In this document: piece after piece, positions 1 through 1,441 of the stretch
How positions within the stretch are numbered: position 1 is the first letter of the stretch
How the letters are laid out: the number at the start of each line of letters is the position of its first letter
Assembly: GCA_016934535.1 (NCBI GenBank)
Contig: JAFGSQ010000071.1
Location: forward strand, 1 to 25,669
Reading direction: 5' to 3'
Length of the DNA stretch: 25,669 nucleotides
DNA from: a candidate division WOR-3 bacterium
GTDB taxonomy: Bacteria; SDB-A
Made by a program: the position numbers and the translations under genes
The notes under the pieces: generated by a model
Databases searched by the model: none
Told to the model about the DNA's origin: nothing
Seen by the model: the letters and a program-made list of their open reading frames with translations, nothing else

Positions 1-87
1 AGGGCAGGAATCGAACCTGCCACGGACGGTTTTATCCGGCCGCTACTGGTTTTGAAGACCAGCTGGACCACCAGATCCTTCCTCTCC
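1..87 (-). tRNA. selC: tRNA-Sec (anticodon UCA), 3' end cut by window edge
   Basis: Selenocysteine tRNA, which is charged with Ser, converted to Sec by SelA and delivered to in-frame UGA codons by SelB. Read on the minus strand, the fold is: 5' acceptor strand GGAGAGG (87-81); D stem GGATC/GGTCC (78-74 and 69-65); anticodon stem CTGGT/ACCAG (62-58 and 50-46) around the loop CTTCAAA, giving anticodon TCA at 55-53. A long variable arm follows, with a 7-pair stem containing one C-U mismatch and an ATAAAA loop. The T arm is GCAGG-TTCGATT-CCTGC (20-4). Only CCT of the 3' acceptor strand lies in the window, so the last acceptor bases, discriminator and CCA are not visible. The UCA anticodon plus the long variable arm separates it from tRNA-Ser and from a simple suppressor tRNA. 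A 5' end at 88 (8-bp acceptor) is possible. Confidence 0.93.
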
Positions 88-96
88 GAATCAAAA

Positions 97-126
97 ATTA
101 TCAATTCAAGCACACAGGTTTGTCAA
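97..126 (-). promoter_or_regulatory. Sigma70-type promoter of tRNA-Sec
   Basis: On the minus strand a perfect -35 TTGACA (126-121) is followed by an 18-base spacer and GATAAT (102-97, five of six consensus bases), ending about 10 bases before the tRNA 5' end. It lies in the 120-bp gap shared with the divergent 208-1395 gene. Confidence 0.6.
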
Positions 127-152: not shown

Positions 153-181
153 TTGACTTTGTTTTGCAGCGCAAATATCAT
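153..181 (+). promoter_or_regulatory. Probable promoter of the candidate selenoprotein gene
   Basis: TTGACT (153-158), a 17-base spacer and TATCAT (176-181) form a good sigma70-type promoter. It is followed by a strong Shine-Dalgarno GGGAGG at 198-203, four bases before the ATG at 208. The short leader suggests constitutive expression. No operator is obvious. Confidence 0.5.
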
Positions 182-207: not shown

Positions 208-1395
208 ATGTTTTCTTTCATTCTCTGTGCAATCATATCTGCCAGCGCGGTCTCTATGCCCGGCGGAAGGATTTACCAAACCTTTGAAAGGTCTGTTCAC
301 AACAACAACAATCTCTGGACGGCTCTCGACAGACCCGGCGGCGACGTAGGCAGCGTTTCCGGTCCTTCGATGCAGTTTCCCGGAGGCACCGGAATAAACA
401 CCCTCTTTCAGGGATGTCAGGCGATAGGTTTTTCAAGCGGCGCTAATCCTGTAGTCGTCGCCACCCAGCTGTGTTGAGGCGGTCTGACCGAATGGTCAGT
501 GTCCCACAGTTCGTGGGCTTGGATTGACGACTCTCTCTACAAAAGCTTTTACAGCATGACAGACGTTTATCACGGGACTCAGATATACGTCGAAAGAACA
601 GGTTTTTCATGGTCTCAGGACACAAACGGAGATTTCATAGTTTTCGTGAATAAATTTATAAACACATCGCGCGCATCTTATGACAGCGTTTATACGGGAT
701 TCTGGTACGACTTCGACATTCCTTCGTCAGCTTACAGCGACGACATGGCAGGATATATTTCGGCGGTAAACCTTTGTTACATGTATGACAGCGGCAGTTA
801 CACACAGAAGGTCGGAATATGTTTTTTGGAACCGTCGGGTGCGCACGGAGCTCACTGGTATAATTACGCGACAACTCCGGGAGACGACAACTCTTATTAT
901 GCCGCTCTTGGAGACGTGAGCGTTTCCGCATCTTGGCCGACGACGCCGGCTGATTACAAGATTATGATAAACTGCGGTCCGTACTCCTTCGGTCCGGAAG
1001 ACACCATAACGATAGCTTACGGTGTAGTCGCGGGAAACGACGAGAGCGAATTGACTTTAGCCGCGACGAGAATGATTCAACTTTATGACAGCCTCAGCCT
1101 GTCAGTCGAAGAGGATCCGATCGCCCAAATACCCGAGTCATATGAACTTTCGCTGACCGTCGGATTCTTCAACGGAAGAATTTCTGCCGTTTTAAAAATA
1201 CCTTGTGACGATTGCGTCGAAATAAGCGTTTTTGACGTTCACGGCAGGGAGGTTCTCGGCGCCTCAAGATTCAACGCCACTCATGGCGAAAACACTTTCT
1301 TACTCGACGCAGACAGTTTGAGCAACGGATTATATTTCATCAGGGTATCGTCGGCGTCTGTATGTGCCGTGGGTAAAGTCAGTGTCATAAGATAA
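208..1395 (+). CDS. Candidate exported selenoprotein, in-frame TGA at 475-477 read as Sec90
   Basis: One continuous frame of 395 residues if TGA 475-477 is decoded as selenocysteine; otherwise an 89-residue stub. The start ATG 208 has Shine-Dalgarno GGGAGG four bases upstream. Residues 1-14 look like a short signal peptide (hydrophobic core, Ala-x-Ala-type end). The middle is Tyr/Ser/Asp/Gly-rich and probably beta-structured. About the last 80 residues resemble the C-terminal beta-sandwich sorting domain of FCB-group secreted proteins (ISVFDVHGRE, then SNGLYFIRV and GKVSVIR). Sec would follow Cys89 directly (QLC-U-GGLTEW). The downstream half has no credible start of its own: GTG 499 is the first candidate and lacks a Shine-Dalgarno. 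It keeps protein-like sequence to the stop at 1393-1395. Hairpins follow the TGA and tRNA-Sec lies 120 bp away. Alternatives are a nonsense mutation, a TGG-to-TGA error, or a pseudogene. I do not recognise the family and assign no function. Confidence 0.68.
484..518 (+). promoter_or_regulatory. Candidate bacterial SECIS: tandem hairpins after the in-frame UGA
   Basis: Hairpin 1 is CTGACC (484-489), loop GAAT, GGTCAG (494-499), six perfect pairs. Hairpin 2 is CCCAC (503-507), loop AGTTC (508-512), GTGGG (513-517), extended by G501-C518 across an unpaired U502. The loop of hairpin 2 starts 31 bases after the UGA and has G in its second position followed by UU, with a bulged U below the stem. 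This matches the general bacterial SECIS layout as I recall it: a small apical loop with an early G, roughly 16-37 bases past UGA. Hairpin 1 is closer (loop from +13). Which of the two SelB would bind cannot be decided by eye, and short hairpins do arise by chance. Confidence 0.45.
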
Positions 1396-1441
1396 ATATT
1401 GCTGGTTCTGCCGTTCTGAAAAATCATGCAGTGAAAGGAAA

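Follow-up and report, generated by a model that had tools for sequence, protein, structure and literature searches.

Gene order at the left end of the contig

The stretch of DNA analysed here (the window) comprises 25,669 nucleotides of a contig from a candidate division WOR-3 bacterium, and its left end carries a tRNA-Sec gene and, divergent from it, a gene whose frame is interrupted by one TGA (Table 1). If that TGA is read, positions 208-1395 of the plus strand form a single frame of 395 codons, from ATG 208 through the internal TGA at 475-477 (codon 90) to a TAA at 1393-1395, as the first-pass annotation had described. The promoter-like pair and Shine-Dalgarno sequence that it had placed upstream are both present, the latter as AGGGAGG ahead of ATG 208. 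It had also called the sequence beyond the TGA protein-like; differences between codon positions show that the same frame is under coding constraint on both sides of the TGA. The gene adjoins tRNA-Sec, as had been stated; ARAGORN reported no tRNA in the window, and the tRNA-Sec was detected by Rfam.

Table 1. Features at the left end of the window and the evidence for each.
Feature	Positions	Strand	Evidence
tRNA-Sec	3-82	-	Rfam RF01852, 50.7 bits against a cut-off of 47
Divergent promoter-like pair facing tRNA-Sec	97-126	-	TTGACA-18-GATAAT, 11/12; consensus match only
Promoter-like pair of the putative selenoprotein gene	153-181	+	TTGACT-17-TATCAT, 10/12; consensus match only
Putative selenoprotein gene	208-1395	+	Sec at codon 90; TAA stop; nine-member alignment
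Putative signal peptide	208-261	+	By inspection; N-terminal helix H2-13 in the AlphaFold model
Predicted beta-super-sandwich domain (residues 28-300)	289-1107	+	AlphaFold; Foldseek and VIA-align, Z 16-18
Putative Sec UGA codon	475-477	+	Directly after Cys89 (TGT 472-474); TGA in 9/9 homologs at this column
Upstream hairpin CUGACC-GAAU-GGUCAG	484-499	+	Mainly clade 1; A-U to U-A on both sides in L014
Candidate SECIS hairpin	502-517	+	U502; stem CCCAC 503-507 / GUGGG 513-517; loop AGUUC 508-512
Type IX secretion C-terminal sorting domain	1216-1392	+	Pfam PF18962 match, residues 337-385

Four genomes of the host's bacterial family (G000-G003), three in one genus and one in another, provide the comparison. 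G000 is the genome of the window; G002 is the public metagenome bin recorded as candidate division WOR-3 bacterium Zod_Metabat.185 (JAFGIG01); and G003 is recorded as Desulfuromonas sp. SDB (LKUE01), a name at odds with its position in the family of the WOR-3 host and probably attached to a mislabelled MAG. All four genomes encode tRNA-Sec, SelA, SelB and SelD, the three proteins scoring above curated cut-offs, which settles the concern raised in the first-pass annotation that selA, selB and selD might be lacking. SelD itself contains a UGA codon in all four, and UGA-containing formate dehydrogenases (FdhA) with the motif CAR(T/L)-U-H are encoded in G000 (two genes), G001 and G002, which indicates active Sec decoding. 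Both UGA-containing formate dehydrogenase genes of G000 (C6:58289-58450 and C47:21565-21726) have the SECIS loop GGUCU, as does E. coli fdhF. Beside the UGA-containing SelD, G003 (L049, C363) and G001 (L050, C66) also carry another SelD, which has no TGA and lies within a frame of some 740 residues.

The order of the sel locus can be followed in each genome. G001 and G003 each have selB-selA-tRNA-Sec on the minus strand and then the UGA-containing gene on the plus strand of one contig. In G000, contig C53 begins with tRNA-Sec-selA-selB and overlaps the end of the window contig by 79 nt inside the tRNA (G000:C53:1-79), and in G002 a contig also breaks inside the tRNA-Sec gene, from which it follows that the sel locus is split in the assembly. 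The one-contig order and the matching breaks together mean that the adjacency is conserved across two genera, with the UGA-containing gene divergent from tRNA-Sec-selA-selB in all four genomes. On the other side, G001 and G002 have a gene of about 1285 codons, with a start that looks cyclase-like by eye, between the UGA-containing gene and an HD-like gene (L132 6917-10762 and L133 1427-5287); it is absent from the window (1396-1441).

Conservation of the UGA codon and of the RNA downstream

Nine full-length homologs were found in the four genomes, with 32-63% identity to the window protein; a second copy in the window's own genome is 35% identical and also has one internal TGA. A scan of genome contigs returned four loci, all from two of these four genomes, and a scan of viral contigs returned no relative. 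Each homolog contains exactly one in-frame TGA, the other stop in each frame being the final TAA or TAG, and the TGA falls at one alignment column in 9/9. The first-pass annotation counted TGA or Cys in homologs as support for Sec and TGG in all of them as refutation; TGG, like TAG and TAA, never occurs there. Conservation at one column in nine homologs from four genomes is far beyond chance. The preceding residue is Cys in eight homologs, giving a Cys-Sec pair, and Asn in L028; Cys is also frequent at residue 70, where it could pair with Sec. Substitutions favour third codon positions downstream of the TGA as they do upstream, and the protein is conserved on both sides. The homolog tree consists of the long-branched L028 and two clades in which every one of the four genomes is represented once. 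Since each clade contains both genera, the duplication of the gene came before the separation of the genera, and the TGA is older than the paralog split; it has been kept on all branches since. In the genus, the clade-2 paralogs are followed by a gene whose conserved, exported product of about 494 residues (L126 6044-7528, L127 1636-3123, L129 3316-4797) has by eye the look of a right-handed beta-helix.

Published rules for bacterial SECIS elements specify a loop of 3-9 nt, a stem of 4-16 bp, a spacing of 16-37 nt and an energy of at most -7.5 kcal/mol, with a G in the first two loop positions that is often followed by G or U (PMC13188914). The candidate hairpin of the window gene, whose loop starts 30 nt after the UGA and whose energy is -9.9 kcal/mol, conforms to them. 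A scan with the same rules found such a hairpin in six of the nine genes (L001, L012, L013, L014, L022 and L028) and none in L002, while the hairpins of L021 and L023 are borderline, their energy falling just short. These last three genes all belong to clade 2 and instead fold a longer stem that closes a 10-12 nt loop (12 nt in L002). The host's reference elements are similar: that of SelD (loop CGUGC, -6.7 kcal/mol) also falls just short of the energy rule, and that of FdhA has the loop GGUCU. All nine family members keep the loop G, although it lies in an AGT (Ser) codon in six and in TGT or TGC (Cys) in three. Covariation is modest, with 2-3 pairs changed on both sides, and the stem of L028 has U-A in place of C-G.

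Selection on the RNA is also suggested by codon choice. Synonymous codon identity reaches 0.63 over the first 16 codons past the UGA, compared with 0.42 elsewhere; only 3 of 363 windows match this level, and these start at codons +1 to +3. RNA structure over these 16 codons is stronger than in synonymous-codon randomisations (mean z -1.76). The 11-codon window at +7 has z -1.16, below all 57 windows scanned, whose minimum (-0.95) is for the window starting at +2; the control windows, also of 11 codons (mean -0.12, sd 0.38), compare like for like with -1.16 and not with -1.76. The 81-nt fold around the UGA of the window gene alone is not unusual (z -0.57), the signal coming only from homolog comparison and synonymous randomisation. 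The hairpin at 484-499 was considered as a SECIS element and rejected: its loop, at 12 nt from the UGA, is too close for the published spacing, and pairing holds in 65% of cells across the nine.

Sec is not the only conceivable reading of this codon. UGA might be read without Sec-tRNA, either under a code reassigned to Trp or Gly or by programmed leaky readthrough that yields a short and a long product; the standard SECIS is missing in three clade-2 genes (L002, L021, L023), and an 89-residue short form would probably be made to some extent. However, TGA is an ordinary stop elsewhere, ending 16 of the 34 window genes, the Sec system is complete with UGA in SelD and FdhA, the gene stands beside tRNA-Sec-selAB in four genomes, and the codon is always TGA and never TAG or TAA, all of which makes such a reading very improbable. 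Even harder to sustain is a split into two products, with an 89-residue peptide secreted and some 300 residues translated separately by reinitiation just past the TGA. Clade 2 does have an ATG two codons on (TGA CAC ATG), but clade 1 and L028 have no such ATG, and L028 lacks ATG, GTG and TTG in the 19 codons after the TGA; moreover, the conserved residues before and after the TGA form one sequence, the predicted domain spans this codon, and the downstream product would carry a sorting domain with no signal peptide. The last alternative, an ordinary exported protein disrupted by a nonsense mutation, by decay to a pseudogene or by a sequencing error, would leave a single internal stop, and the window by itself cannot exclude it. 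It is nevertheless already refuted and has practically no chance of being correct: nine genes in four separate assemblies carry TGA at this column, which leaves no room for sequencing error or recent mutation, and the frames have no other stops and keep their third-position bias downstream.

Predicted protein and its relatives

The C-terminal sorting domain of FCB type named in the first-pass annotation was recovered, barely above threshold, as PF18962 (27.3 bits against a cut-off of 27, E=4.4e-6), while the corresponding NCBIfam model TIGR04183 scores 22.4 against 23. PF18962 matches 9/9 homologs, and the type IX translocon gene SprA (TIGR04189) scores over its cut-off in all four genomes. 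Export of the protein is likely. The AlphaFold model is of moderate confidence (pLDDT 73, pTM 0.61) and places Sec in the loop joining strands 80-85 and 96-106, within the predicted domain. The fold predicted for residues 28-300 resembles the N-terminal super-sandwich domain of GH15, GH94 and GH116 enzymes over about 235 aligned residues, the following helix included. In contrast to those enzymes, the catalytic (alpha/alpha)6 barrel is missing, the protein ending after the super-sandwich and sorting domains. Sequence identity is about 10%, and the shared fold shows no function.

Among 386 genomes across bacteria, distant relatives share residues ~118-300 or the N-terminal PGGS region, and none of those that reach the Sec column has a TGA there. 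They include large exported type IX proteins of other phyla (e.g. L027, L064 and L104), which have the PGGS region and/or residues ~118-300 and in many cases a sorting domain, but which are mostly far longer frames, have no UGA at the Sec column and do not conserve the loop. Homologs with Cys at this column, predicted at the outset, were not found: the relatives that can be aligned show S, R, Q, E, P or, in L027, an ambiguous C/S, in a loop that aligns poorly. With no conserved Cys found among the distant relatives, Sec may have arisen from another residue. Most known selenoproteins have Cys homologs; Sec/Cys pairing is the usual search criterion for selenoproteins and is not required for Sec decoding. 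One distant relative in another phylum, L120 (G060:C1:642458-643243), also has an in-frame TGA (GPTDV-TGA-EWYMDD). It lies at another position and may reflect a pseudogene, an error or a second recoding event.

The first-pass annotation knew of no selenoprotein family with this architecture, and our comparisons agree. In Pfam and NCBIfam, the window protein and its homologs match only sorting-domain models, apart from weak cross-matches. A 2026 inventory lists 119 prokaryotic selenoprotein families and subfamilies (PMC13188914), and no entry describes the present one, the families of Haft and Tolstoy 2025 being compared through its Table 1 and NCBIfam only. Among the papers listed by literature searches on selenocysteine together with type IX secretion or WOR-3, none was relevant. 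The family shares with known bacterial selenoproteins (SelD, FdhA and those of the inventory) the in-frame UGA, the genomic SelA, SelB, SelD and tRNA-Sec, and a downstream hairpin loop of the form N-G-[G/U], and its CU motif recurs in the KCU-star, SaoC, SaoL, HgcA and MbdU families (PMC13188914). It differs from them in its predicted fold, which is not thioredoxin-like, in its type IX sorting domain and in that no conserved Cys counterpart was found. It is thus very likely an undescribed, lineage-restricted selenoprotein family.

Proposed decoding, export and significance

We regard it as highly probable that the UGA at 475-477 is decoded as Sec in a functional protein. The initial proposal of an exported selenoprotein is supported, with the UGA kept in 9/9 genes, the Sec machinery complete and the sorting domain in 9/9 proteins, and none of the checks run from its list of refuting conditions went against it. 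SelB and Sec-tRNA-Sec would decode the UGA, guided by the hairpin about 30 nt downstream (502-517), two steps that we infer with high confidence. The 395-residue preprotein would then probably be exported by its signal peptide and pass the outer membrane via type IX secretion by means of the C-terminal sorting domain, to end at the cell surface or outside, for which our confidence is moderate. The mature protein might, more speculatively, display vicinal Cys and Sec residues on a super-sandwich loop. As to function, a tentative and rather doubtful suggestion is that the pair acts in thiol/selenenylsulfide redox chemistry or binds soft metals or metalloids outside the anaerobic cell. For the fuller picture of a family that lacks a Cys ancestor at the site, is exported to the surface by type IX secretion, bears a vicinal Cys-Sec on a super-sandwich like that of carbohydrate enzymes and is genetically tied to tRNA-Sec-selA-selB, we see roughly even chances.

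Thioredoxin-like proteins make up most of the characterised selenoproteins, and methods in common use for finding them depend on Sec/Cys pairs. Such methods would miss this family because no Cys partner was found for it, which suggests that poorly studied phyla may hold more selenoproteins that pass for truncated hypothetical proteins. The link of the gene to the sel operon makes the proposal testable. If true, a surface-exported Cys-Sec protein would widen the known uses of selenium and would mean extracellular selenium chemistry in a lineage so far uncultured.
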